The notes under the pieces: model-generated
Told to the model about the DNA's origin: nothing
The model's input: the letters and a program-made list of their open reading frames with translations, nothing else
Database searches by the model: none
Made by a program: the position numbers and the translations under genes
Part shown: one piece after another, positions 6,119-26,966 of the stretch
How the letters are laid out: each line of letters starts with the position of its first letter
Numbering within the stretch: the first letter of the stretch is position 1
IMG/VR virus record: IMGVR_UViG_3300020215_000130
Span: 1-26,968 of that record
Source: a virus
Length of the DNA: 26,968 nucleotides
Reading direction: 5' to 3' (one strand)

Positions 6119-6384
6119 GTAGATTGACCCTTACAGATTGGGCTGTAAAAAGCCTGGGGCTCGACCCTCCCCCGCCCATTGGCACCCTGCGTTCCTGGGC
6201 CAGAAACGGGAATATATCACCGCAACCGGTATTGATAGGCCGTGAGTACCGGGTTGATAGTGATGCGGTCTATATAAGGAAAGCCAGAATCCCGAGCATT
6301 GGGCCAATTCACGTGTTAAAGTCCGAGGACCCTATAGTCAATGACATTATCAGTGGGAAGACCCAGAAGCGCCGGCAGGCGTGA
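6115..6384 (+). CDS. xis: Excisionase-like protein (Exc/Xis family)
   Basis: This 89-aa protein resembles excisionase (PF07825-type) winged-helix DNA-binding proteins. It has LTLTDWAVKSLG, then the recognition segment PIGTLRSWARNGNISPQPV, then GREYRVDSDAVYI. Such proteins bend attachment-site DNA and steer the integrase toward excision. The start is GTG 6115 overlapping the previous stop, with GGGGGAG upstream. The 3' end overlaps integrase by 44 bases, the same xis-int arrangement as lambda, so the two are likely co-transcribed with the early operon. Confidence 0.85.
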   Translation: MSRLTLTDWAVKSLGLDPPPPIGTLRSWARNGNISPQPVLIGREYRVDSDAVYIRKARIPSIGPIHVLKSEDPIVNDIISGKTQKRRQA

Positions 6385-7582
6385 TCTGCCGGATAATCTG
6401 AACCCAAAGCCCCGCAAAGTCGCGGGCGGCCGAATTGTCGTCTATTGGTTCTGGCGCGATCCAAGGAATGGAATTGAAAAGCCCCTGAAATGCCCGGATG
6501 ACAAGGCGACTGCAATCCGGCGGGCGAAAGAACTCAATGCCATCGTCGCTCAGGAACGCGCTGAGCAAATCATTTCCGATATTATCGCCTCACCCAAGAA
6601 GCTCCCCGGAACACCTTTCGACGCCTTCGCGATTAACTACCTGACGAAACTGGAAAGCTCTGAGCTTGCTGCCAACACGCTGAAAATGCGCAAGAGCTTG
6701 GTTAACACGGCGATTCGGTTTTTTAAAAACAAACCCTTTCATGAAATAGGCGTTCCGGATATGGACGCCCTGCTCCAATCGCTTGTAGCCCAGGGAAAGC
6801 ACCGAACCGCTCAGGCACTCCGAAGTGTAATGATTGATCTCTGGAAGAAGGCTTATTCTAAGGGCACGATTCCAAGCTCGCACCCGAATCCCGCTGAAAT
6901 CGTCGAGCGCCCAAAGGCCAAGGTAAAGCGTGCCAGGCTGGTTCTGGAATCGTTCAACGCAATACTGGAGTCTGCAAGAAAGATCGCCGAGAAACGCGGC
7001 TCTTGGATGCCCAACAGCATGCTTTTAGCGCTGGTAACCGCTCAGAGGCCGTGTGACTTAGTAACCGCTCAATTCAAACGCGGACGGGACTGGTATAAGG
7101 CATGGGAGGAGTATCAGCACAACCCAAAGGGGACACCGCCCTATGCTCATGTTCATGATGGCTTCTTTTGGGTGGTCCAGCAGAAAACAGGAGCGCTGGT
7201 CAAAATACCGCTGAATCTGCGTCTTGAGGCTATCGGGATGAGTGTCGGAGAAGTAATTGAGCAATGCCGATCGCAGGTGGCAACACGATACATCCTTCAC
7301 CATACAATACCTTTTGGTAACGCGCCGCTCGGGAGCCCGATCAGTAACTCCCGGCTTGCACATGGGTTTGCAGACGCCAGGGACGCGACGGATCTGGAGT
7401 GGCCCGGCAAGGAAGCCCCGCCCTTTTATGAAATCAGATCGCTTTCAGAACGGCTCTACAGCGAGCAAGGCATCGACACGCAATCCCTGCTTGGCCATAA
7501 GCACGCGAGGATGACAGAGGTCTATGCGGACCCGAGACAGGCGGAGTGGATGACCGTCGTTTATAAACAGATTTCAGAATAA
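6341..7582 (+). CDS. int: Lambda-type tyrosine integrase
   Basis: This 413-aa tyrosine recombinase carries out site-specific integration and excision. The N-terminus (GRPRSAGRRDLPDNL, then VVYWFWRDPRNG) matches the arm-site binding domain of lambda Int. A SAM-like core-binding region covers about 90-180 and the catalytic domain about 200-413. Catalytic residues are Arg236 (AQRPCDL), Lys282 (QQKTG), Arg366 (EIRSLSERLY), His386 (LLGHKHARM) and nucleophile Tyr395 (EVYADPR). The usual His of the HxxR box is Tyr363. GTG 6353 is an alternative start, closer to lambda Int, but no ribosome-binding site favours either. It is somewhat longer than lambda Int (356 aa). Confidence 0.93.
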   Translation: MTLSVGRPRSAGRRDLPDNLNPKPRKVAGGRIVVYWFWRDPRNGIEKPLKCPDDKATAIRRAKELNAIVAQERAEQIISDIIASPKKLPGTPFDAFAINYLTKLESSELAANTLKMRKSLVNTAIRFFKNKPFHEIGVPDMDALLQSLVAQGKHRTAQALRSVMIDLWKKAYSKGTIPSSHPNPAEIVERPKAKVKRARLVLESFNAILESARKIAEKRGSWMPNSMLLALVTAQRPCDLVTAQFKRGRDWYKAWEEYQHNPKGTPPYAHVHDGFFWVVQQKTGALVKIPLNLRLEAIGMSVGEVIEQCRSQVATRYILHHTIPFGNAPLGSPISNSRLAHGFADARDATDLEWPGKEAPPFYEIRSLSERLYSEQGIDTQSLLGHKHARMTEVYADPRQAEWMTVVYKQISE

Positions 7583-7600
7583 TTTTGGAAATGATAAAAT
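7583..7600 (+). repeat. Direct repeat, left copy (partner 7759-7776)
   Basis: TTTTGGAAATGATAAAAT begins at the int stop. It matches TTTCGGAAATGGTTATAT at 7759-7776 in 14 of 18 positions. The copies flank 158 bases of gene-free DNA. They may be recombinase arm sites or remnants of an insertion; both are inferences. Confidence 0.5.
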
Positions 7601-7835
7601 TACCCGAGAAATTTAGCTGTGCGTTTGCTTCCCATGCAGACAAACAAAACATTCACTTTTGACATAAAAATCAACTAGTTAAGTTAGATTTTGGCGCTAA
7701 AAAACACATCGAAAAACCAATGAATGCATCTTATAACATTCAACCACTTAGGCGATAGTTTCGGAAATGGTTATATATAGCGTAACCACACCCAAGCATG
7801 TTGCAAATTACAACGGGTGGGTCATACTGGTAGTG
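7583..7835. other. AT-rich intergenic stretch, probable attP region
   Basis: No gene is seen in these 253 bases between int and the lipoprotein gene. Structure present: an imperfect 18-bp direct repeat (7583-7600 and 7759-7776, 14 matches, core GGAAATG); two AACATTCA copies (7648-7655, 7735-7742); and TGAATG at 7721-7726, which with CATTCA at 7737-7742 makes an inverted pair spaced by 10 bases. These could be integrase or excisionase sites. A TTGACA at 7659-7664 has no good -10 partner. The attP assignment rests on position next to int and on these repeats; no core could be proven. Confidence 0.45.
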
Positions 7836-8366
7836 ATGCGATACCTGCTGCTTACTATTCTCTTGGTCGCGGGCTGTAAACACAGCTCAGGTGGTAGTAG
7901 TGGCGGCAACAATAACTCTCCACCAGATGAAGAGCCAGAGCCTGTCTTTTATCCATTCGAATTTGATGTAGCAACGCCCGAAGGCATCCAAATAGAAACC
8001 AATGGGCACACCATCCCGCAAGTCTGGGATATAGATACTTGGTATGCTGAAGTCTCGCAGTGTGTTTCAGACGGGTATATCGCTTTAGGAAGAAATGATT
8101 ATGAATTCGTACCAGGGCCGCCAGTGATCATAAAAGAAGACCTGACAACTATCCCCATGTGTGATGTAACCGGGTTCGGCGTTTATTGCGTGAATTACGC
8201 TATCCCTTTTATGGGGCTTGATTCCTCTAATTCGTCGGTCCTATTCCGCAGGGAATGGAAGCACGAATTTATCCATCACATTCTTTTTTCTAACGATGTT
8301 GATACAAATCATACGTGGCACAAAAACCACATTCCAAACGAGATTTGGGACTGCGAATGGAATTAA
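7836..8366 (+). CDS. Lipoprotein with HExxH metallopeptidase-like motif
   Basis: This 176-aa protein starts with a lipoprotein signal (MRYLLLTILLVAGC, lipid anchor at Cys14), followed by a Ser/Gly/Asn/Pro-rich linker (16-36). Its folded part holds HEFIHH at 143-148, an exact HExxH zinc-binding motif, with His159, His162 and His165 downstream as possible third ligands, and four Cys that could form two disulfides. It would sit in the outer or inner membrane facing the periplasm. An upstream in-frame ATG at 7767 would bury the signal peptide, so 7836 is preferred although its ribosome-binding site is weak. It stands alone, between attP and the tail operon, which is typical of a lysogeny-expressed moron. 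Peptidase activity is inferred from the motif only. Confidence 0.75.
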   Translation: MRYLLLTILLVAGCKHSSGGSSGGNNNSPPDEEPEPVFYPFEFDVATPEGIQIETNGHTIPQVWDIDTWYAEVSQCVSDGYIALGRNDYEFVPGPPVIIKEDLTTIPMCDVTGFGVYCVNYAIPFMGLDSSNSSVLFRREWKHEFIHHILFSNDVDTNHTWHKNHIPNEIWDCEWN

Positions 8367-9115
8367 ACGCTTACCATGTAAGAAAATGTAAACCCGCCAA
8401 CGCCTTTAGTTCCTGAAGTTGTAAAGGCCGCATCTGACACCCTGCCAAAAGTTAACGCCCCCGTATTCTCCATAAATACGGTCCCAGCCTGCCCTGTTCC
8501 ATTGTCATAAACCTGAACTATTCCCTCGCCGGTTGCGGACGCTGGTGTAATCCCAGCGGGTGCCCCTGTAATGGTGAAAGTTGAAGCATTACTAGTCCCA
8601 GTCAAAGACGAACGAGTTTCAACAAAGACCATATTGCCAACTCTTTTATAGTTAACAGTAACGGTTGGGGAGGTGGTAAGCCCAGTCGCAGTTCCGGTAT
8701 ATGAGCCGGATGTAGATCCGGCCAAGGTATTTAATTCTGCCGTGGTAGCAGTCGTTGCCGTGGCGTTATTAATTTGGGTAGCTGTAGATGTTATCGCCGT
8801 GCCAGCAATAGCCAAGTCCCCGGCGGCAGCAATGTTAACGAGCCCGGTTCCATTTGGCGACAGTTCAATATTCCCGTTAGTGTTAGTTGATGAAATCGTG
8901 TTCCCATCTAGCCGCAGATTATCTACATTCAACTGGGTAGCAGTATTTGAGCCGTCTTTGTTGATACATTGATTAATCCCAGTCGCTAAATCCTGATCGT
9001 GGGTGTCATGCCGATCAGCCCGGATTTTGACTCCGGCAGCCGCATCGGTTGCCCAGGTTGTTGCTCCGGTATTTACGCCATTTGTTCTTGTAAAAGTACC
9101 GCCACTCCAAGCCAT
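8363..9115 (-). CDS. Tail fibre-like protein
   Basis: This 250-aa protein is low in charge and rich in Thr, Ala, Gly and Asn. Its N-terminal block is of the kind seen in podoviral tail fibres (TWATDAAAGVKIRADRHDTH, then DQDLATGINQCINKDG). It then has repeated short beta units (TAITSTATQINNATATTATT) and a beta-rich C-terminal domain ending FTFSYMVSV. It probably forms a trimeric fibre or fibre base for host recognition. It is the last gene of the late operon; its ATG overlaps the stop of the gene before (TAATG). Its stop shares TTAA with the convergent lipoprotein gene. Confidence 0.7.
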   Translation of the reverse strand: MAWSGGTFTRTNGVNTGATTWATDAAAGVKIRADRHDTHDQDLATGINQCINKDGSNTATQLNVDNLRLDGNTISSTNTNGNIELSPNGTGLVNIAAAGDLAIAGTAITSTATQINNATATTATTAELNTLAGSTSGSYTGTATGLTTSPTVTVNYKRVGNMVFVETRSSLTGTSNASTFTITGAPAGITPASATGEGIVQVYDNGTGQAGTVFMENTGALTFGRVSDAAFTTSGTKGVGGFTFSYMVSV

Positions 9116-10611
9116 TAGAGGAGTCCTCCAGGGTTAAACATGTAATTCGTTGCAAACCAGCGAACGTCCTGACCGGAAACGGAGACTCTCAGTCTTCCGG
9201 AGACGTTGTAACCAATGTTGTTACAGGGGGCCCAATAGTTAATCGGGTTGTAACTCCCCGCCCAGTCGTCTGTATCCCAGGTTCCGGTATCCCAAGATGC
9301 GCCGGAGCTGACGGTGATTGAGGTAGAAGAAAAGTCGGAGTAATTTCCTTGATCGACGGCGAAGGCTGTAGAAACAGTTAAATTCCCGTCCGCAGACATA
9401 ATGGGCTTCAAGCCGGTAAACTGTTTAATATTGGTTCTGCTTCCGAGGTAGTTGAACGCTTGTTTCCCGTCAGCGGCTATCGCTGCCCCGTTGTCGCTTC
9501 TTGTGGTGTCATCTGCAAGATAAACCGTCCCATCCCCGCCAAAATAAAGGCGGTCGTTGTAGATCCCAAAACACCGGGCGTTCCAGTTGGTGAACTTGCA
9601 CCATGCGCCGGGGTTGTCAGAAGTGTTTACAACGTGCTGAACGTAAGTGAGGTCAACCGCTACCGGAACGTTAAAAAGAGCAAGGCCACCACGGGGATAA
9701 AAAACGCCCTCCCAGCCTTGATTGCTTCCGTAATTCTGCGCGTCTTCAACAACCTGCCCTCGGATCTTGTCTGAGACGGTTGCTTTACTGCTGCCCCTCA
9801 ATCCATTAATAACTGCGGACATGGGGACATAGCCGTCTTTGGTCAGAATGATTAACTCACCACCTACTCTCAGAAGGCATCTACGCCCCAACGGGGGCGC
9901 GGTGTGGTAACGTCCGACGAGGGACCATGAATAGGAGGTTCCTGGGTCTGATCCTTGATAAACGATGACTTCACCGTTTGAAGTGACAGCCACAAACACA
10001 TCATCAGGCCCGCTCCCCGCATCACGGGTCCAAGTTCCTGTGGCCATGAGATAACCGCCGCGTTCGGTAACGCGTTCTAATGGGAATTCAGTTAAAGCCC
10101 CTCCCAAAGTGTTAACAGCCGAATACCAAAACGAGAGTGAGCTGTTTTCACAGAAGTAGGACCGGCTTTTAAATTGCGAGATATTGACGAGATTGGTAAC
10201 GGTGAGCCCTGTTCCACTAACAGTCATGTTCGAGACGGTGGAGCCGTCATAGGTTTTGGGATTATCCGCCCCGTTGACTAATCCCAACTTTCCGTCGAAA
10301 TTGATCGTCTGCCAGTAATCATTGGTCAGGGACGAAACCAAGCTGGAAGGGGTTGAGGTCGATATATCCCAAATATTCCCATTCGCAGCCGCAAGGAATT
10401 TACGAGTTCCAAATCCGTCATAAGCCGCAAGGGTTCGGACATCATTACCCAGGCCTGAGACGTACTGAGAAAACCCTTTCCTTAACTCACACCGACCCGC
10501 CCGAGGAATCCAGTTCTCTAACAGGATGGCGTCGGATTCAGGCATTTGATCAAGGGAATCTCGGGCATTCCAACCGCCCGTAGGCGCAGGGACAGCTTTA
10601 ATTCTAGCCAT
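9115..10611 (-). CDS. Tail nozzle-like beta-propeller protein
   Basis: This 498-aa protein starts MARIKAVPAPTGGWNARDSL at 10611; an upstream in-frame start at 10665 would run far into the previous gene. The N-terminal APTGGWNARD...LLENW pattern is common in podoviral virion proteins. The remainder is strand-rich with repeated turn-like units (LAAYDGFGTRKFLAAANGNI, NDRLYFGGDGTVYLADDTT), suggesting a propeller. By position after the adaptor gene it probably plays the part of P22 gp10 or T7 gp12, closing the tail tube. This is inference from fold pattern and order. It overlaps the adaptor gene by 8 bases. Confidence 0.7.
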   Translation of the reverse strand: MARIKAVPAPTGGWNARDSLDQMPESDAILLENWIPRAGRCELRKGFSQYVSGLGNDVRTLAAYDGFGTRKFLAAANGNIWDISTSTPSSLVSSLTNDYWQTINFDGKLGLVNGADNPKTYDGSTVSNMTVSGTGLTVTNLVNISQFKSRSYFCENSSLSFWYSAVNTLGGALTEFPLERVTERGGYLMATGTWTRDAGSGPDDVFVAVTSNGEVIVYQGSDPGTSYSWSLVGRYHTAPPLGRRCLLRVGGELIILTKDGYVPMSAVINGLRGSSKATVSDKIRGQVVEDAQNYGSNQGWEGVFYPRGGLALFNVPVAVDLTYVQHVVNTSDNPGAWCKFTNWNARCFGIYNDRLYFGGDGTVYLADDTTRSDNGAAIAADGKQAFNYLGSRTNIKQFTGLKPIMSADGNLTVSTAFAVDQGNYSDFSSTSITVSSGASWDTGTWDTDDWAGSYNPINYWAPCNNIGYNVSGRLRVSVSGQDVRWFATNYMFNPGGLL

Positions 10612-11308
10612 AGCCCTGATCCGGTATGTTCGCGCCCGCAGGAGAACCCGTGTAAGAGTCGCCAAAGCAAAGGTTTCTCATACCACCATCACGAGCGATC
10701 ATTTTCTTTTTCTGGTTTTCGTACTCCAGAAAGTCCGATTCCCACTCAAGGCCCTTGGCTTTCTTGAATCGCCAAACGACACCAAGTGTTATTAATTCCT
10801 CGTCGAGTTTCGCGGTATCCGTATCAGCAGCCCATGCTGCCTGGGCAACAGACAAAGAGGATTGGCACCACTTATTTGAAATGTACTCAAAGGCAATCGT
10901 CTGCCCGTTTTCAGCGGAGGTAATCGTCTGTTGAAAGACAACCTGATTACCATGGATGCGGGCATACAGGTTTAACCCTGTGGGTCCGGACCACGCTTGC
11001 AGGAATTCCCACTCTTGAGGGGTAACAGGATTTAGAACGTAACGACTGGTCGAACGATTCCACATCGTGGTAGGAATGATCCACCCAAAATCTGTTGGCA
11101 GGACGTAATCTTGATCCCCTGTAGCCAACGTAAATGTGTGAATAGTTCTTAACGCCTGCCAAGGCGCAGCTTTAGATAATGCTTTCCCCTCCCGATTCGC
11201 AAGCCTCAATAGCTGATTTGCGTTCGCATCAGAATTTGAAACAATCGTGGACGGCTCAGGAAAACCAATTTCCGCCGCCGCATCTTGGCAGATCGTTAAC
11301 AGACTCAC
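10604..11308 (-). CDS. Head-tail adaptor (tail tubular protein A-like)
   Basis: This 234-aa protein begins at GTG 11308 with GAGGAG 9 bases upstream. The opening MSLLTICQDAAAEIGFPEP, then QLLRLANREGKALSKAAPWQ, is typical of podoviral adaptor proteins of the T7 gp11 type that dock below the portal. A central beta part (DYVLPTDFGWIIPTTMWNRS) and a C-terminal helical part (WRFKKAKGLEWESDFLEYE) follow. Length fits. It lies between the helix-hairpin-helix gene and the nozzle-like gene. Confidence 0.8.
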   Translation of the reverse strand: MSLLTICQDAAAEIGFPEPSTIVSNSDANANQLLRLANREGKALSKAAPWQALRTIHTFTLATGDQDYVLPTDFGWIIPTTMWNRSTSRYVLNPVTPQEWEFLQAWSGPTGLNLYARIHGNQVVFQQTITSAENGQTIAFEYISNKWCQSSLSVAQAAWAADTDTAKLDEELITLGVVWRFKKAKGLEWESDFLEYENQKKKMIARDGGMRNLCFGDSYTGSPAGANIPDQGYG

Positions 11309-11821
11309 TTAGTCAATCTCCTCAGCCATTACACGGGGTTTCGGGCCGGGCTTCTTTCTTGGTGCGGGTTCTACATTTGGGTTGTTGCTCAACGCGGAGA
11401 CATTTACAGGAGAAGGCGTTTCTTCCGCTTCAGCCTCAACACTCAAGGCTTCAAGGTAAGCCTTTGCGCGTTTCTGGAGAGTTCTGCCGCCGGGGATGTT
11501 GTTGATTCCGGGTTCGCCCAGATTGGCAAGATCCTCAATTGAGTACACACCCAGCGCTTTCAGGTTGATCGCCTGAGAAGGACCAACGCCGGGGAGCACG
11601 GAAATCGGATTGCCGTCAGTTAAATCGGGGCTGTTGCTTTGATACGCTGCCCAGGCTTTGGGGTAATTGATCTTATCCTCGTCAATAACCTCTCTTGAAA
11701 ATGAGGTGTTTTTATTCCCTCGAATCGAAATCTCGACATACACCTTATCTTTGTGAGATCCATCTCCCTGAAGCTGGGGATGAGTGTAAAAACGGGCGTA
11801 CGTATCAGGATGAGCTGGCAT
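11309..11821 (-). CDS. Helix-hairpin-helix protein in virion operon
   Basis: This 170-aa protein carries a helix-hairpin-helix-like DNA-binding segment at about 73-123 (LPGVGPSQAINLKALGVYSI and so on) and a basic AT-hook-like stretch near residue 155 (RKKPGPKPR). Between them is an acidic linker (SVEAEAEETPSP). Similar genes occur near adaptor genes in podoviruses. A role at the DNA-filled head-tail junction is possible but unproven. AGGAG lies 8 bases before the ATG. It abuts the adaptor gene with no gap and overlaps the DUF115 gene by 17 bases. Confidence 0.65.
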   Translation of the reverse strand: MPAHPDTYARFYTHPQLQGDGSHKDKVYVEISIRGNKNTSFSREVIDEDKINYPKAWAAYQSNSPDLTDGNPISVLPGVGPSQAINLKALGVYSIEDLANLGEPGINNIPGGRTLQKRAKAYLEALSVEAEAEETPSPVNVSALSNNPNVEPAPRKKPGPKPRVMAEEID

Positions 11822-12587
11822 AGTTTGCTCCTATGTGCTGTTGGTGAATGAAAGGAATTAAACCGGTCCCGTGGGCGTACACTCGAATACCGGCTCCTTC
11901 GAGTGCTTCAATTTGTTTTTGGTAGTCTTCTGCCTGAGTTAACATCCAAGGCGAGCAAGTGAATTTCTTCCCGTTGAACTCAACGTCAAGACGCTCCTCC
12001 CCGTCGTTAATGGGTTGAGGGAATGCGTGGTGGTAGTCTTCGTAGCTACTGTCCATTCCGTAGTGGTGAATGGTTCGATACCCCAACGCAGCACCAAGAC
12101 ACATCAAACGAAGCCCTATCGTGCTTCCTCCTTGAATCATCAGGACTTCTGGTGACTTGGAATACTTGAGAATCGTGTCTTGTAATTCGGGTTCGTGGTT
12201 GTGCCAGAGAACAACCTTGCAGTCTTTCAGGGAATCCAACACCGAAGGGTGACATTGGGAAGCGATAAAGTAGGTAACATCTTTCCGTGGATTCTGGACA
12301 AAACTCGCGCTCTCTTTCCGAGCGTCCAACATCGCCATGTAGTCGGGTACGATCCCTTTTGAAATCAGGTAATCGTGCGTTCCGTTTGTAGCCCAGACTT
12401 CGGCCTTCTTTGCCTTGCGATAACGAATCTGAGGTAACTGGTTTTTAAGCGAAGGTCCACCGCCCACAATAACCATTTGCCGACCGTGAGGCTTTAAACT
12501 GACGACCTCTGGGAGCCCCCGGCTTGTATTGATTTCGATGTTTCTCGCCCTGTCCCGTGGTCTGGTGTTAACGGATTGAGCAATCAT
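11805..12587 (-). CDS. DUF115 (Maf/MptE-like) protein, stand-alone copy
   Basis: This 260-aa protein looks like a DUF115 protein, the group that includes flagellin-modifying Maf factors and the archaeal pterin enzyme MptE. Landmarks are VIVGGGPSL (39-47), WATNGTHDYLISKGIVPDYM (65-84), GGSTIG (153-158), YGMDSSYEDYHHAF (176-189) and a final HGTGLIPF (239-246). It aligns along its whole length with residues 58-263 of the preceding gene product, so the two are paralogues. The start at 12587 overlaps the previous stop (ATGA); no clear ribosome-binding site is seen, so translation is probably coupled. Likely a nucleotide-sugar or diphosphate-linked transferase, but the substrate is unknown. Confidence 0.75.
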   Translation of the reverse strand: MIAQSVNTRPRDRARNIEINTSRGLPEVVSLKPHGRQMVIVGGGPSLKNQLPQIRYRKAKKAEVWATNGTHDYLISKGIVPDYMAMLDARKESASFVQNPRKDVTYFIASQCHPSVLDSLKDCKVVLWHNHEPELQDTILKYSKSPEVLMIQGGSTIGLRLMCLGAALGYRTIHHYGMDSSYEDYHHAFPQPINDGEERLDVEFNGKKFTCSPWMLTQAEDYQKQIEALEGAGIRVYAHGTGLIPFIHQQHIGANYASSS

Positions 12588-13936
12588 GAGGACACATAGA
12601 GCAATGCGGTATGCTCTTGATCCATTCCCCACTTAATGCTAAACCCGAGCGACTCGAACTTTTCTACCCACCATTTACAAGGATGGACTGAAAGGTGTAA
12701 CGGGTGGTCAATCAACTCGCCCATGACATCAGGCACAAGACTGATTTGGAAAAAGCAGTCGTTCACACACTCCATGATGTTTTTAATTACTACCTCAACC
12801 TGCTCCGGCGGGATGTGTTCCATGACGTCAGTGCAATAGCCATGTTTGGCCCTAAACGGCATCGCTTCGGATAAATCCCATTGAACAAACGGAAGGTGCG
12901 AGGATTCGGGATCTCGGGAGTTGCTTGTGAAGTCCACCAAAAGCACTTCGAGACCTGAGTTGTGAAGCTTTAAAGCTCCCCGACCAGTACCACACCCAAA
13001 ATCAATGACGTTTCCGGAGGGTTTCACGATCTCAAGGAATTTCTCTACACAGTCCTCGCCCGGTGCCACTTGCCGGTATTCCGGGTAATTCCACATCAGT
13101 TGGTATTTCTCGGCCTCGGACAAATTCTCTAATTTGGCGTTGTACATGTCCGGGAGAAGGCCGTAACCATGGACATTGATCTTGCAGCCGTAAGACCTGA
13201 GCGCTCGTGAAGTCTCCATGAACTTCTCGGCCTGGAGTTTCATGGTTAAGGAGCAGGTATATTCCTTCCCTGCGAAATTCACGACGCAGCACGGGTCACC
13301 GTCATTTAATGACTGATGGAACGCATGGCCTCTGCCCTCTTTGTGGCTGGAGTCATAACCGTAGATTTCGAGGTTACGATATCCCATGGCGTATGCGAGA
13401 CAAGTGGCGGTATTCCCAACGGAGGCCGCGCCACCGATCAAGCAATAGCTTTGGTTGTACTCAGGTAACAGTGAATCAATGTTTTCAACCTGCAAATGCC
13501 ACAACCGGGCGGTGGGCATTTTAGAGAAGGTCTCTGGAGCAACCTGAGAGGCAAACAAATATTCATTGGCGGGCCCTACGAGAGTTGCCGTTTCGGGTCT
13601 TGCGTCAATGATGACTTGATAGTCCGGAAGTATCCCGTTTTCATTTAGGAACTTCGCGGCGCCATTCATGGCGAAGACTTTCCCGCCTTTCTTCTGCTTG
13701 TTTCGAATCTCGTTCAGGTAATCGGAAAGGCTCGGACCAGACCCGCAGAGAATCGCAACCCCGTCATGCGCATCTTCCAGCCTTACCCAATTACTATGAT
13801 TTCTGGAATTGATTCGGATGTTGTTATAAATCTGTTCATCCGATGTATTGCAGATCAGGTGAACCGGGAGAGTAAGGGGCATCTTTGCCCCCGGGTTCCA
13901 ATGCTTTAACTGAACGTTCGCATAAGGAAGGCGCAT
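12584..13936 (-). CDS. DUF115-methyltransferase fusion protein
   Basis: This 450-aa protein joins two enzymes. Residues about 58-265 form a DUF115 domain (ILCGSGPSL at 62-70, MNGAAKFLNENGILPDYQV at 90-108, YGYDSSHKEGRGHAF at 192-206). Residues about 295-450 form a class I SAM-dependent methyltransferase, with motif I VIDFGCGTGRG at 310-320 and the DVMEHIPP segment at 370-377. GGAGG at 13941-13945 precedes the ATG by 4 bases. It is the first gene after a strong terminator in the late operon. It probably transfers and methylates a sugar-like group on a virion or host surface molecule; that target is inference. Confidence 0.85.
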   Translation of the reverse strand: MRLPYANVQLKHWNPGAKMPLTLPVHLICNTSDEQIYNNIRINSRNHSNWVRLEDAHDGVAILCGSGPSLSDYLNEIRNKQKKGGKVFAMNGAAKFLNENGILPDYQVIIDARPETATLVGPANEYLFASQVAPETFSKMPTARLWHLQVENIDSLLPEYNQSYCLIGGAASVGNTATCLAYAMGYRNLEIYGYDSSHKEGRGHAFHQSLNDGDPCCVVNFAGKEYTCSLTMKLQAEKFMETSRALRSYGCKINVHGYGLLPDMYNAKLENLSEAEKYQLMWNYPEYRQVAPGEDCVEKFLEIVKPSGNVIDFGCGTGRGALKLHNSGLEVLLVDFTSNSRDPESSHLPFVQWDLSEAMPFRAKHGYCTDVMEHIPPEQVEVVIKNIMECVNDCFFQISLVPDVMGELIDHPLHLSVHPCKWWVEKFESLGFSIKWGMDQEHTALLYVSS

Positions 13937-19243: not shown

Positions 19244-20240
19244 TCAGCACCTTCCCATAGTTAACCATCTTGTACCCGTCGAAACGGGTATACACCGCCT
19301 CAGGCATGATTAACTCAACCTCATCAGCCATTACCCCAATCGTCCTCTCAGGATTGTCTTTGTAATTGAAGGCGTAGATATTTAAGCCGTTGCTCATCTC
19401 GCCAAGTCGAACGATGTTTTCCTTGAGGCGTCTGTCTGAGCCCATGAGATACGCAGCTCCTAGATTCGTCCCGGCATTAACACCGCTGGATTTCTTCGCC
19501 TGCTGGTTCTGCATGTTGGCTACATTGCGATTGAGAGCCATATTGGCAGGTCCCATCACATCCACCGGGGACGTGGGGACAACCTGGTTCTGGCCAAGGA
19601 TGGAGGCAAGTTCGTTGAACTGCTGGCCTCTCTCGCTCATGTTCAATCCACGCTCACGGGCCGCAACGTCATTGCCCGCTAATACTGCTGACAATGCCGC
19701 TTGTTCACGCGCTTGGTTCTGTGCTCGGCTGATATTGGCGAATTCGTTATCGTAGGCCGCACCACCAGAGGGTAATCCACGATCAGCCATGGTCTGTTGG
19801 AAGTCCCTCATCTGCTGCTGCTGGCCGGGCTCAAGCAGGTTCATGGCTCTGCGAAAAGTCGCTTGCTCTATATCTTGGTTAAAGGTCTGGCTATTAGCAG
19901 GGCCGCCAGCCATAGAAACCTGTTGCTCAAAAAGCCTTTGTACTTCCGGCGAAAAGGTCGTAACGGATTGCATCGGCATAACCGACCTTGAAGGATCGCG
20001 CGACTGTTGCTGACCGGACTGCTGGATTCTCCCCATCTTCCCGCCACGGGAAGCGCCGCCAGGTCTCACATCAGTAGTACGCCTTCTACCCCCAGACGAA
20101 CCGCCCCCTGCCGGAGAAAACACCGTGCTCCCATAAGGGGTGTATGTGTTGACTCGGTTTGCCGCAGCTTGAGCGTTAACTAGAGGGATATATTCTTGAG
20201 GGGACGGCATGCTTGCGCTGCCGCCGGATTTCTTACCCAT
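19236..20240 (-). CDS. Ejection-type virion protein with S74 chaperone domain
   Basis: This 334-aa protein has a Gly/Ser/Arg-rich N-terminal third, a Gln-rich helical middle (TMADRGLPSGGAAYDNEFAN) and a C-terminal Peptidase_S74-like domain of about 67 residues beginning SDRRLKENIVRLG. In S74 domains the chain is cut before the Ser, helped by a Lys five residues later; Ser268 and Lys273 have that spacing here. The ending MADEVELIMPEAVY...VNYGKVL also fits. S74 domains help trimers fold. ATG 20240 is preferred over 20246 because GAGGA is better spaced. Confidence 0.7.
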   Translation of the reverse strand: MGKKSGGSASMPSPQEYIPLVNAQAAANRVNTYTPYGSTVFSPAGGGSSGGRRRTTDVRPGGASRGGKMGRIQQSGQQQSRDPSRSVMPMQSVTTFSPEVQRLFEQQVSMAGGPANSQTFNQDIEQATFRRAMNLLEPGQQQQMRDFQQTMADRGLPSGGAAYDNEFANISRAQNQAREQAALSAVLAGNDVAARERGLNMSERGQQFNELASILGQNQVVPTSPVDVMGPANMALNRNVANMQNQQAKKSSGVNAGTNLGAAYLMGSDRRLKENIVRLGEMSNGLNIYAFNYKDNPERTIGVMADEVELIMPEAVYTRFDGYKMVNYGKVLNG

Positions 20241-20623
20241 TTGCATTCCTCTTTGAGCATGCCATAGACATACAAATCATTTCCGTTATCTGCCGCGTGT
20301 CTTAGTAACCCCTCACGAACAAAACCAAGCCTCTCCACTAAATTTATGGATTCTTGGTTTGATATTTCGATGAGAGCCGAAAGACGTCGCAGTTTGGCAA
20401 GCTGGAAGGCGTACCCAAAAACAATCTCGATAAAGCCTTTGCTTAATCCGCGTTCTGAAACAATTGAAACCTCACAACCCGATAACTTCTGATTGTGAAA
20501 AACAACTACACAGGAAATCTTCCCATCTTTGAAATTGGCGATTGTGTAGGCAGGCCCAAAGTTACATTGGAGCTGCCGGGAGGCCCATTGCAGGATCGAT
20601 GGGAGCTGCTCCAGGACTATCAA
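20180..20623 (-). CDS. GNAT-type acetyltransferase
   Basis: This 147-aa protein has a GNAT layout: N-terminal strands (ISCVVVFHNQKLSGCEVSIV), a central helix region with GLSKGFIEIVFGYAF in the acetyl-CoA-binding zone, and the C-terminal motif NQESINLVERLGFVREGLLR. It would move an acetyl group from acetyl-CoA to an amine; the target is unknown. The start is TTG 20623, set 5 bases after a strong GGAGG, inside the end of the portal gene (62-base overlap). It also overlaps the next gene by 61 bases. Similar genes occur next to portal genes in podoviruses. Confidence 0.75.
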   Translation of the reverse strand: MIVLEQLPSILQWASRQLQCNFGPAYTIANFKDGKISCVVVFHNQKLSGCEVSIVSERGLSKGFIEIVFGYAFQLAKLRRLSALIEISNQESINLVERLGFVREGLLRHAADNGNDLYVYGMLKEECKWVRNPAAAQACRPLKNISL

Positions 20624-22361
20624 TCATGCCTCCAGGGACACCGGGTATTTGTGGTGCGCCATCACCCAATTTCTCAAGAACCTGCTCAAGCTGATCGCCA
20701 CCCTTAAACCTACGAATGGCAAACAACAGCATCTCCTTGCCAATCTCAGGAGGGATACCCATTTGAACAAGCGGGGCGAATTGCTGAATAAAGCTCGTAA
20801 CCGCCCCCAACAATTCAATAACGTTCTGCTGTTCCTCGGATTGATCAGTGGCAACCGTGGAGTCCGTCTCAATGTCGATCTTGTAGGAGCGTAAGAGGTC
20901 ATTCTTCATGACCGCCATCATCTCAGGTGTGACCTGAATACCAGTCATTAAGGTTAAGGTCTCGGGCTGGAACTGCTCGACAATAACCTCGGCTTTCAAC
21001 CTGTATACATCCCGGAAGAACCGGGCAACCTCATTCTGTTTCTGAGTCAGCCCGAGCGAGGCATTCTGCTGCTTGAGCTGCTGCGCACCTAAAGTCTCAG
21101 TAGCTTTCGTTGATCCCCGTATAATGTCCGAGATACCCGTGATTTCGTAGATCGTCTGCTTGATCTGTTCGCGGGCGTTGTAGAGGTCAATTACAACCTG
21201 ACGCAACTTATCCAAGGGACGAACAACAATAGCATTCTCAAGCGCCGGAGGAGCTCCTGCAAAGCGTTCGCTCCAACCATCAACCGGTTTGAAATCTCCG
21301 TCACCAGCGCCCCCAAGATCAGCCAGTTCCTTAAACGAGCCATCGTACATCCCGTTCCACTTTAACTCCCTTACAAGGTGTCGAATACGGGAGGTAATCT
21401 CATCCAGCTCTAACGCCTGCTCCTCGTAGTGGATGTAATCCGGAGTGGGAATACATCTGTCCGAGAGGACATTGGTCATCATGGGTTTGGGGAAGGGATA
21501 GAAGCCCTCAAGGCTTAATGGGTCGTCTTCTTGTCCTAAAGGCTGGTTGTAGCCGTCACAGATGAATATGAGCTTGCGTTTACGCTTGTCGAATATCTCG
21601 TAGACTTTCGCGCGGCTCTTACCATCCTGTTCCGTTTCGCTGAGTTTGTTGCCGTCCTCGGTGTAGCCTAAAGGACATTGCTCAGCCTTCTCAGCCCCAA
21701 ACTGTTCCTCAAGCTCTTCCTTGCTCAGGTAGTGCTCAATGGCGCACCAAAAGACATTCTCCCAGTTATTCGCAGGCTGCCATCTGAAGCGATCCCATGC
21801 CACAGCCTCACACGAGACTTCTTCGTAAACCACAACTTCAGGGGGCTCGCCAAGGATGAATGGCTGGCCCAGCTCATCAATCTCAGGAACAACTTCCTTG
21901 TCCTCATGGAGGTAGGTCCCGTCTGGTTGAGCAATGACAGGAATACGCGGAGGTTCGCCAGGGCCAAAATACGGCTTGTAGCGAATGCGCATCTGGGCAA
22001 GGCCAGCGATCAGATAATCATCAGCCGCCAAATTCGCCTGCCCGTCGTAATCGTACACGTCCACGGAATAGGCCAGCGCACGCTCGGTTACTTCAGCTAT
22101 GTCGCGGGATAACTGGTCGGGGTCTTTGTAACGGCGAGTTACGTCAGGCTTGGGGCGACTCGAAAGAACGGCAGAGTGCTGTACCCGAGTGTTCGACCAC
22201 AGGATATTAAATTTAGCCTTCTTATCCTTCTCCGAGCGGTAACGTTCCACCGTTCTCTTAGCCTGATTCCGGAACTCCTTATGCGCCTTCTCTTCGGCAT
22301 CCAGTTCCTTGATCCAGTAGTTATAAATCGGATCGCTTGTGCTTTCGGTCGTGTCGTTCAA
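20562..22361 (-). CDS. Portal protein
   Basis: This 599-aa protein is a large podoviral portal. It has a helical N-terminus (AEEKAHKEFRNQAKRTVERY), IRYKPYFGPGEPP, a long middle with ELDEITSRIRHLVRELKWNG, and IRGSTKATETLGAQQLKQQN, a segment common to P22-type portals, followed by a helical crown region and a Pro/Gly-rich tail. Twelve copies form the DNA channel at one head vertex. The start is TTG 22361 with AGGGG 6 bases upstream, overlapping the terminase gene by 41 bases. Confidence 0.9.
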   Translation of the reverse strand: MNDTTESTSDPIYNYWIKELDAEEKAHKEFRNQAKRTVERYRSEKDKKAKFNILWSNTRVQHSAVLSSRPKPDVTRRYKDPDQLSRDIAEVTERALAYSVDVYDYDGQANLAADDYLIAGLAQMRIRYKPYFGPGEPPRIPVIAQPDGTYLHEDKEVVPEIDELGQPFILGEPPEVVVYEEVSCEAVAWDRFRWQPANNWENVFWCAIEHYLSKEELEEQFGAEKAEQCPLGYTEDGNKLSETEQDGKSRAKVYEIFDKRKRKLIFICDGYNQPLGQEDDPLSLEGFYPFPKPMMTNVLSDRCIPTPDYIHYEEQALELDEITSRIRHLVRELKWNGMYDGSFKELADLGGAGDGDFKPVDGWSERFAGAPPALENAIVVRPLDKLRQVVIDLYNAREQIKQTIYEITGISDIIRGSTKATETLGAQQLKQQNASLGLTQKQNEVARFFRDVYRLKAEVIVEQFQPETLTLMTGIQVTPEMMAVMKNDLLRSYKIDIETDSTVATDQSEEQQNVIELLGAVTSFIQQFAPLVQMGIPPEIGKEMLLFAIRRFKGGDQLEQVLEKLGDGAPQIPGVPGGMIDSPGAAPIDPAMGLPAAPM

Positions 22362-23877
22362 GCATTTCCCCTAGGGTGGGTCTTGCGGTAATCGGTTTCT
22401 GTGGTTCTTTGGGCTTGGGTGCTTTCGGTGCCCATGTTTGGTTAATTGCTCTGCCTATCAACCCGCACGCATCAACCTTGTCGTCATGAGTTCCGCCAGG
22501 GAACTTGATACATTGCTCAATGACTTTATTGGCCCACTCGGTGTACGGGAAATAAACACAGCCTTGAGAAGCCAAGGCTTGAAAGTTTCGTGATCGTGCT
22601 TGCTTATCGTTGATGCTTGAAAGCCATTCAAGCCTGCAAATTGTCTTTCTCTGGCGCATCCTGCGCTGTAATGTGGGTTCAACTGAGCGGCGGATAACAC
22701 CGCCCTCACCAACAACAACAAACGGCCCGTAGCGTTCTATGAGGTCACAGATCCACTCAATCCACACATCAGAGGTTTCTTGTCCTGACCTCCAATCCAT
22801 TGCGTAGATGTTGTCAAACGGATCAACACCCCAGACACCAATCTCAGTGAAGTCCGGGTCTTTCCCTTCCTCAACCTCAGTAACCGCATCATCATGCGTA
22901 ATGTAGATGTTCAGGTTTTCAGGTAACTGTGTGTACCGCCTGAACCACTCCCGTTTGAAGTAAGTCCCGTCTTCAGGGGTTGGATTCTGCTGGTAGAGGC
23001 AGGACCAATTGCGAATGTCTTTCTTTGTCTGGGCCGCTTTAGTTTCTTTCCAGAACTCCGGAGTAAACCAGTCAGTCCACAACCACTCTCCGGGCTTTCG
23101 ATTAAGTGGATCGTTCTTCCCTGCTTCAGCTTGAGCCTGTATGCAAATGACAGTCCATAACTGCCCGTCAGTCCCTATGAACTCGCCCGACTCACCATCC
23201 CAATCACTCGGGAGGATTCGCCCCGAAAGGTCATGCTCTGACCATCGTGTCTGAATGATGATCTGAGCCGCACCAGGCTTAAGCCGCGTTAGGAAGTCTG
23301 ATAAATACCAGTCCCAGGTATTTGAGCTAACCGTGTCGCTATCAGCCTCTTGCCTGCCTTTAACGGGGTCATCAATGATCCCAACGTCTGCCCTTCGACC
23401 GGTGATCCCAGAACCAACACCACAGGCAAAATATGAGTTGCCTGAATCCGTCTCCCATTCCCCTTTAGCCTGCGAGTCTTCTGCCAAGCTCAACGGGAAT
23501 AGCTTCTGGTACTCTTTGGTTCTGACAAGGTTACGGACTTTCCGTCCGAAATTGTTGGCAAGATGCTCACCATAGGAAGCACAGATAATGCTCTTGTGCG
23601 TCTTCTTCCCGATGTAATACGCGGGGAACCTCACACTTCCATAAGTGCTCTTGGCTGACCCCGGCGGCATGAACACCATCACACGCCTTAATAGGCCGTC
23701 CGCTACCTTATCAAGTACATCACAGAGAATTTCATGGTGCTTTGCCGGCGGCTCATCAGGAGCTATGTACCGGCAGAACTCAGTGAACCTGGTCCGGGCT
23801 TTCCGCCTTCGTAGCAGCTCCTTGGCTGCGTCCTGTGGCGATACTTGTAAGTTCTGAGTCGGATAGGTCGCTGACAT
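22321..23877 (-). CDS. terL: Terminase large subunit
   Basis: This 518-aa packaging motor has an N-terminal ATPase with Walker A PPGSAKST (71-78), Walker B VGIIDDP (165-171) and the coupling segment IIIQTRWSEHDLSGR (206-220). The C-terminal RNase H-like nuclease uses acidic residues around HDD 328-330, Asp342 and HDDKVD (464-469). It pumps DNA into the head through the portal and cuts the concatemer. The length is typical. The gene overlaps terS by 98 bases and portal by 41 bases. Confidence 0.95.
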   Translation of the reverse strand: MSATYPTQNLQVSPQDAAKELLRRRKARTRFTEFCRYIAPDEPPAKHHEILCDVLDKVADGLLRRVMVFMPPGSAKSTYGSVRFPAYYIGKKTHKSIICASYGEHLANNFGRKVRNLVRTKEYQKLFPLSLAEDSQAKGEWETDSGNSYFACGVGSGITGRRADVGIIDDPVKGRQEADSDTVSSNTWDWYLSDFLTRLKPGAAQIIIQTRWSEHDLSGRILPSDWDGESGEFIGTDGQLWTVICIQAQAEAGKNDPLNRKPGEWLWTDWFTPEFWKETKAAQTKKDIRNWSCLYQQNPTPEDGTYFKREWFRRYTQLPENLNIYITHDDAVTEVEEGKDPDFTEIGVWGVDPFDNIYAMDWRSGQETSDVWIEWICDLIERYGPFVVVGEGGVIRRSVEPTLQRRMRQRKTICRLEWLSSINDKQARSRNFQALASQGCVYFPYTEWANKVIEQCIKFPGGTHDDKVDACGLIGRAINQTWAPKAPKPKEPQKPITARPTLGEMLERHDRKHKRSDL

Positions 23878-26626: not shown

Positions 26627-26839
26627 TTAATACCCATTCCTCCGGTTGCATTCTTCCAGCGCTTGGCGCATCTCGACCGCGATCACGACCAATCCTGCTA
26701 CAGATTCGTCCGATGTGGTCGGGACCTCACACTTAGCCGCTTGGGCCGGTAAAGATACCGGATTCGCGCAGCACCCCGACATGAACAGCAGGAAGACTGC
26801 AATCAGCAGCAACAGTGCGGGCTTTCTCTTTGCGCTCAT
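26627..26839 (-). CDS. Outer-membrane spanin (Rz1-like lipoprotein)
   Basis: This 70-aa protein starts with a basic N-terminus and signal peptide (MSAKRKPALLLLIAVFLLFM) and a lipobox MSGC, with lipid attachment at Cys23. The short periplasmic part (CEVPTTSDESVAGLVVIAVE, then MRQALEECNRRNGY) resembles o-spanins. Its first half lies within the end of the Rz frame in another reading frame, the classical nested layout. It would link through Rz and fuse inner and outer membranes at the last step of lysis. An alternative start lies at 26857. Confidence 0.75.
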   Translation of the reverse strand: MSAKRKPALLLLIAVFLLFMSGCCANPVSLPAQAAKCEVPTTSDESVAGLVVIAVEMRQALEECNRRNGY

Positions 26840-26966
26840 TCCAAACCGGCCTCTCATCGAGTATCTTGGTTTCTGCCCTTTGCCTTAACTTAAGATTCTC
26901 GTTAGTTAAGGCAAGCAGCTCTGCCTTAACTTCGTCCTTTCCAGCCTGCTTCCCAGCATCGTAGAG
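26733..26966 (-). CDS. Inner-membrane spanin (Rz-like), C-terminal part only
   Basis: The 5' end is cut by the window edge. The visible 77 residues include a coiled-coil stretch (DEVKAELLALTNENLKLRQR) and an end with CSLPAVHVGVLRESG, close to the CSLP...LH ending of Rz proteins. The N-terminal membrane helix would be to the right of the window. The frame was read directly from the - strand and stops at TAA (26733-26735), 107 bases into Rz1. Confidence 0.7.
   Translation of the reverse strand, partial: LYDAGKQAGKDEVKAELLALTNENLKLRQRAETKILDERPVWNERKEKARTVAADCSLPAVHVGVLRESGIFTGPSG

Follow-up and report, generated by a model that had tools for sequence, protein, structure and literature searches.

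The locus and its genomic context

The DNA analysed here (the window) is a virus contig of 26,968 bases, IMG/VR record IMGVR_UViG_3300020215_000130, in which integrase and late genes are joined, i.e., it was not assembled from an integrated prophage. On the + strand, a tyrosine integrase gene (6341..7582; phrog_7244, E 3e-42) is followed by a non-coding block (7583..7769), a promoter-like block (7799..7828) and an open reading frame (7836..8366) that starts 253 bases after the integrase stop codon and translates into a 176-residue lipoprotein with an HExxH motif. The lipoprotein gene lies on the integrase/early strand, opposite to a leftward late operon whose last gene, a tail-fibre-like gene (8363..9115, − strand), meets it in a 4-base tail-to-tail overlap. 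Upstream in the same operon lie a phage stabilisation protein homologue (9115-10665) and genes for an SU10-type adaptor, a capsid-like protein, the portal and the large terminase. Because an integrase is combined with these late genes (stabilisation protein, adaptor, portal and terminase), the sequence most likely belongs to a temperate short-tailed phage.

Several other genes of the window deserve mention. The large terminase (22321-23877, −) shares 55% identity with its counterpart in Phage CBW1004C-Prop1, the genome of which is also ordered terminase, DNA-stabilising protein, DNA transfer and tail-fibre. Within the virion-gene operon, the late-strand gene at 11805-12632 (−) matches the MptE-like family (PF01973), and its adjacent partner at 12584-13936 (−) reads like a relative fused to a methyltransferase domain (phrog_24759), making an odd pair. 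The gene adjoining the portal gene (20180-20623, −) appears GNAT acetyltransferase-like by eye. Finally, a small lipoprotein encoded at 26627-26857 (−), with the lipobox FMSGC, resembles an outer-membrane spanin (Rz1-like / o-spanin); its presence probably places the lysis module close to the end of the contig and indicates that the lipoprotein at 7836-8366 is not the spanin.

A search with the integrase located a second phage, IMGVR_UViG_3300020215_000108 (L039), and with it the first relative of the lipoprotein, a protein of 182 residues with 47-51% identity. This homologue occupies the same slot, downstream of an integrase 75% identical to that of the window and with a 4-base overlap with the adjoining late-strand gene; the arrangement is common to only these two phages. 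The late genes next to it are largely unrelated to those of the window, and two extra late-strand genes (78 and 206 residues) separate it from the att-like block. Since the L039 gene runs against the grain among late genes, it cannot be just another member of the late operon. An HExxH scan detected no copy in 37 contigs that have only the stabilisation protein in common, many of which are fragments, and an integrase-based host search of 369 genomes in the class of genome G002 returned nothing.

In both phages, the gene is thus placed as an accessory gene would be, between phage modules and on the strand opposite to the late genes. A preliminary description of the locus had portrayed it as a lone gene standing apart from both operons, next to attP. 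The opposite orientation bears out the first part with respect to the late operon, of which the gene is for this reason not a member; however, its strand is that of the integrase and early genes, and its 3′ end runs 4 bases into the last late-strand gene; a scan of the window listed no terminator-like site on the + strand at this end. The second part is a presumption: no tRNA or repeat marks an attP core, and what adjoins the integrase is a non-coding block of about 190 bp (7583..7769) conserved with L039, which likely represents the attP region.

Immediately upstream of the gene, the block TGTTGCAAATTACAACGGGTGGGTCATACT (7799..7828, +) reads as TTGCAA, a 16-nt spacer and CATACT. Between 7799 and 7827, 23 of 29 bases are identical to the block upstream of the L039 relative (TGTTGnAAATTACAA...GTCATAC), a level that 1,000 Markov shuffles of the two upstream regions never attained, and the pattern TTGnAA, 16 nt, CATACT is common to both. 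The promoter scan lists the block in L039 but not in the window, where TTGCAA has one consensus position fewer. Moreover, the window start codon lies 8 bases past the −10-like hexamer and the predicted transcription start falls on the ATG, so that either translation is leaderless or the hexamers are misread. The block is therefore best described as a weakly called candidate promoter of the lipoprotein gene, and read-through from the integrase strand before integration is possible instead. A dyad, TTG-N7-CAA, spans the −35 element; no second exact copy of this palindrome occurs in the window or L039, and thus no shared repressor operator was found. In L039, a perfect hairpin of 10 pairs with AAGGA in its loop (12356-12380) separates the promoter-like block from the start codon of the relative; the window lacks this hairpin.

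Architecture of the predicted lipoprotein

The product comprises a signal peptide (residues 1-13), a lipid-bearing Cys14, a linker (about 15-36) and a domain (about 37-176). Its lipobox, MRYLLLTILLVAGC (VAGC / LVAGC), is followed by Lys at position +2, and LVAGC at Cys14 matches the Gram-negative lipoprotein pattern [LVI][ASTVI][GAS]C after a short signal peptide. Under established sorting rules, Lys after the lipid Cys favours the outer membrane in gammaproteobacteria; judged by this residue, the protein is probably sorted there. The linker is a low-complexity stretch rich in Gly, Ser, Asn, Pro and Glu that reaches about residue 37. An alternative in-frame ATG at 7767 would give a protein of 199 residues, although the start at 7836 is preferred because the start and signal peptide of the L039 relative agree with it.

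The HExxH motif is HEFIH at residues 143-147 (codons 8262..8276, +). A six-frame translation of the whole window, about 20,800 residues, contains only three such motifs, and this rarity, together with invariance across the family described below, indicates that HEFIH is more than chance. The clean lipobox, flexible linker and exact HExxH of the preliminary description were all recovered in the translation, with Cys14 nearly invariant in the family. Its count of four Cys is correct if the lipobox residue is excluded; the total is five (14, 76, 109, 118 and 173).

No match to the 176-residue protein was found in Pfam, PHROGs, NCBIfam, the PDB, phage records or plasmid records, nor in direct protein scans of viral contigs and genome contigs, and PDB sequence profiles gave weak matches only (Spartan, E 0.11). 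The NCBIfam model J517_1871 was rejected, its match being confined to the signal peptide.

An uncatalogued family in phages and bacteria

Scans with the degenerate pattern HEF[h]HH[h]L[FY] uncovered a family of lipoproteins of about 150-200 residues. Viral relatives were detected on a 363-kb viral contig (L047, = L116) and, in a final viral scan, on L117 and, more distantly, L118. Bacterial relatives were found in a Dadabacteria genome (L057, two tandem copies), a deltaproteobacterial MAG contig (L075), a Thiotrichales genome (L081) and a gammaproteobacterial MAG contig (L085). These four were the only real members among 45 genome matches to the pattern, the others having arisen by chance, as did L043, the single match to KHEFIHH. 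Weak matches in L101 and L102 were rejected as other HExxH proteins, and membership in phrog_9897 was not adopted, as that entry aligns with three relatives over the HEFIHH stretch alone. Relatives carry lipoboxes such as LACMVAAC, LSGC and LAGC. The alignment of 12 members shows no variation at Gly50, Cys76, Pro95, His143, Glu144, His147, Leu150 and Cys173, and almost none at Met1, Cys14 and His165.

A profile from which the two close phage copies had been left out was tested on 10,000 decoys, and in half of these HEFIH was retained at its position. With this profile, the product of 7836-8366 (P0001) scores 32.5 bits and P0002 scores 24.7 bits, above all decoys; the best of the 5,000 HEFIH-keeping decoys reached 20.1 bits. 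Because both proteins exceed every decoy, the homology is real and does not reflect the motif alone. The lack of matches in curated libraries and annotated phage or plasmid records could have pointed to a chance open reading frame with accidental motifs; the close relative in a second phage and the profile-level family already refute this notion, which we consider to have practically no remaining probability. A profile search located family members in 12 of 57 genomes from the G006 phylum (Dadabacteria-type) and in a small number from the G002 class. One weak member was found among 340 genomes of the phylum centred on a Bdellovibrio MAG, and among 329 genomes of the phylum centred on a Myxococcales MAG no member passed, which is weak evidence.

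The chromosomal relatives in the 12 genomes and in the Thiotrichales genome, as well as the low GC content of the gene (45.2%, vs. a gene mean of 50.5%, sd 2.6), would be compatible with a housekeeping or neutral passenger lipoprotein that came from a bacterial chromosome and has no role in the phage. Such an origin is nevertheless very unlikely, as two phages in which half of the residues differ keep all motif residues, the slot and the upstream block, and homologues also occur in unrelated phages.

The surroundings of the relatives are varied. On the 363-kb viral contig, inspection by eye places the relative beside a predicted outer-membrane-barrel-like ORF and several further ORFs with signal peptides; together they form one run (L116 5266-8001), which is possibly an envelope-modification cassette. 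In L057 (869-5020) and L075 (4601-7654), a FecR-like gene and a Wza-like gene for polysaccharide export run divergently from the lipoprotein gene; this synteny is conserved, with the lipoprotein copies in tandem in L057. The L081 relative adjoins pantothenate genes. The L117 relative lies beside a T4-type portal and a prohead-protease-like ORF (by eye), and that of L118 in a tail region.

The last two positions, among the structural genes of other phages, make a lytic-cycle role possible. In this alternative, the lipoprotein would be an envelope protein that aids release or stops progeny from adsorbing to debris, as T5 Llp does, without any function in the lysogen. Llp itself is a lytic-cycle superinfection-exclusion lipoprotein (PMC9586334), and the location of the window gene on the early/integrase strand, shortly downstream of the integrase, would fit as well. 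The gene is, however, opposite to the late strand in both the window and L039 and has its own conserved promoter-like block, and a separate o-spanin-like lipoprotein is already encoded at 26627-26857. An exclusively lytic role is thus rather doubtful.

The putative zinc site and predicted fold

The zincin metallopeptidase motif extends family-wide, with His143, Glu144 and His147 invariant in the 12 aligned members. Further downstream, position 165 is His in 15 of the 16 sequences of the profile set and Glu in L085, and the spacing to the third ligand ranges from 11 to 17 residues among relatives. Of the downstream His residues pointed out previously, His159 and His162 vary in the family alignment and only His165 (codon 8328..8330, +) is nearly invariant; the candidate zinc site therefore consists of HExxH plus His165 (His143/Glu144/His147/His165) rather than the neighbouring His159/162. 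Cys76 and Cys173 are conserved in addition.

An AF2 model of residues 36-176 from nine sequences (pLDDT 61.6, pTM 0.62; an earlier two-sequence run gave a pLDDT of 33) contains a helix, a β-hairpin, a long helix on which HExxH lies and a further helix at the C terminus. A Foldseek search with this model yielded no match with E below 1e-3, the weak matches being mostly zincins or zinc peptidases. VIA-align placed the clostridial collagenases at the top (Z 8.2-8.8, 126-133 aligned residues, rmsd 3.8-4.1), although, according to the tool's own warning, Z near 8 may reflect only a common arrangement. YbeY, selecase/jannalysin (selecase, 6.0) and Wss1 (5.8) followed. With Z at this warning level, a zincin-like fold is treated as likely, not established. 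The structural comparison proposed earlier thus gave an answer of moderate confidence: the best VIA-align matches are gluzincin peptidases (Z 8.8), the pLDDT is 62 and no Foldseek match is significant. Taken with the family-wide HExxH and third His, the zincin-like model nonetheless supports the original reading of a zinc-peptidase-like lipoprotein.

Among named families, SprT-like (PF10263) comes closest in sequence: subthreshold matches were obtained for six of eight relatives, although at the gathering cut-off of 25.6 bits the window product gave no match and the best relative reached 18.1 bits. The SprT-like arrangement of a third His before an aromatic residue is present (His165 ... Trp171). 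As in SprT-like proteins, Wss1 and selecase, HExxH sits on a helix in the model and is followed by a short stretch and the third His before an aromatic residue, and the model resembles both Wss1 and selecase (Z 5.8-6.0). Those proteins, however, are cytoplasmic, whereas the lipoprotein would be exported and has a conserved Cys pair; moreover, collagenases outscore them against the model. The collagenase peptidase domains (ColG, ColH, ColT) share HExxH and are the best model match, with Z 8.2-8.8, yet are only 9-13% identical in sequence and belong to far larger proteins. In addition, the third ligand of gluzincins is Glu, in contrast to the conserved His of this family; the classical downstream Glu ligand is absent, Glu169 not being conserved. 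The metzincin signature HExxHxxGxxH/D is likewise lacking, as HEFIHHILFSND has Leu150 for Gly and Asn153 for His/Asp. By these sequence features, the lipoprotein is not a metzincin, not a classical gluzincin in its third ligand and not an accepted PF10263 member. In its action it would most resemble a small HExxH...H peptidase mounted on a lipid anchor.

Whether such a site cleaves must be weighed separately. In a zinc-binding, non-proteolytic lipoprotein, the metal site would shape a surface that blocks a receptor, or would scavenge zinc. The small domain, the variable spacing of the third ligand and the replacement of His165 by Glu in L085 are consistent with this option, and known phage exclusion lipoproteins bind rather than cleave (PMC9586334). 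On the other hand, Glu144, needless in a purely structural site, is invariant in all aligned members, and the model matches are active peptidases; we therefore deem the non-proteolytic option unlikely. Zinc binding as such is quite probable, and proteolysis moderately so.

Proposed role

On balance, we tentatively propose, with slightly less than even confidence, that the gene is an envelope-modifying accessory ("moron"-type) gene of a temperate short-tailed phage encoding a zinc-peptidase-like outer-membrane lipoprotein. After export, the product would receive its lipid at Cys14 and probably be directed to the outer membrane, where a flexible acidic linker would hold the domain of about 140 residues, with a zinc site formed by His143, His147 and His165 and with Glu144 as catalytic residue; Cys76 and Cys173 may form a disulfide that braces the domain. 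The product would probably cleave, or hold in a zinc-dependent manner, a protein that belongs either to the host envelope or to an incoming phage. The infected or lysogenic cell would most likely benefit by being protected, e.g., through superinfection exclusion, although even this single likeliest purpose is a doubtful one. From its position on the right side of the presumed attP, the promoter-like block would keep the gene expressed in the prophage, and expression in the lysogen is reasonably likely. The slot, integrase, non-coding block and promoter-like block shared with L039, with late genes that largely differ, and the low GC content of the gene count in favour of the accessory-gene proposal; the omission of the block from the window promoter scan, the modest pLDDT of the AF2 model and the restriction of the arrangement to two phages count against it.

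Known systems offer partial parallels. The position of the gene agrees with the moron-type slot suggested earlier, as it matches that of the conversion operons of P22-like phages: in epsilon34, genes 20-22, which make up the gtr conversion operon, stand between the tailspike gene (19) and gene 23, int (PMC2629481). Like gtrABC, the gene is accessory, non-virion and located between a tail-spike/tail-fibre gene and int/attP, but the gtrABC products are membrane proteins acting on O-antigen sugars, not lipoproteins. In Kapi1, genes in the corresponding slot did not account for the O-antigen change (PMC8787464). The gene for the superinfection-exclusion lipoprotein Llp of T5 neighbours that for the receptor-binding protein (PMC9586334), and Llp and T1-type Cor resemble the present case in that the gene for a small outer-membrane lipoprotein lies beside a receptor-binding or tail-fibre gene. 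They jam receptors, however, and have no known metalloprotease site, and library searches found no sequence relation to them. Listeria mtz-tim provides a precedent for a phage-associated exported zinc protease at the envelope, although it is a secreted metzincin with a Met-turn, and the lipoprotein is a separate substrate (PMC8235301).

As a kind, phage accessory lipoproteins and zinc peptidases are already known; the present family is nevertheless uncatalogued in Pfam, PHROGs and NCBIfam, and its alignment assigns conserved residues to about twenty phage and bacterial proteins left ungrouped there. A bolder and, for now, improbable extension is that these are outer-membrane-anchored zinc proteases of phages and bacteria that serve proteolytic lysogenic conversion, trimming receptors or envelope proteins and thereby shielding the host. 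Known phage conversion factors alter sugars (gtr, oac) or jam receptors (Llp, Cor). If true, a lipid-anchored protease in a conversion slot would represent a different way of remodelling the envelope.
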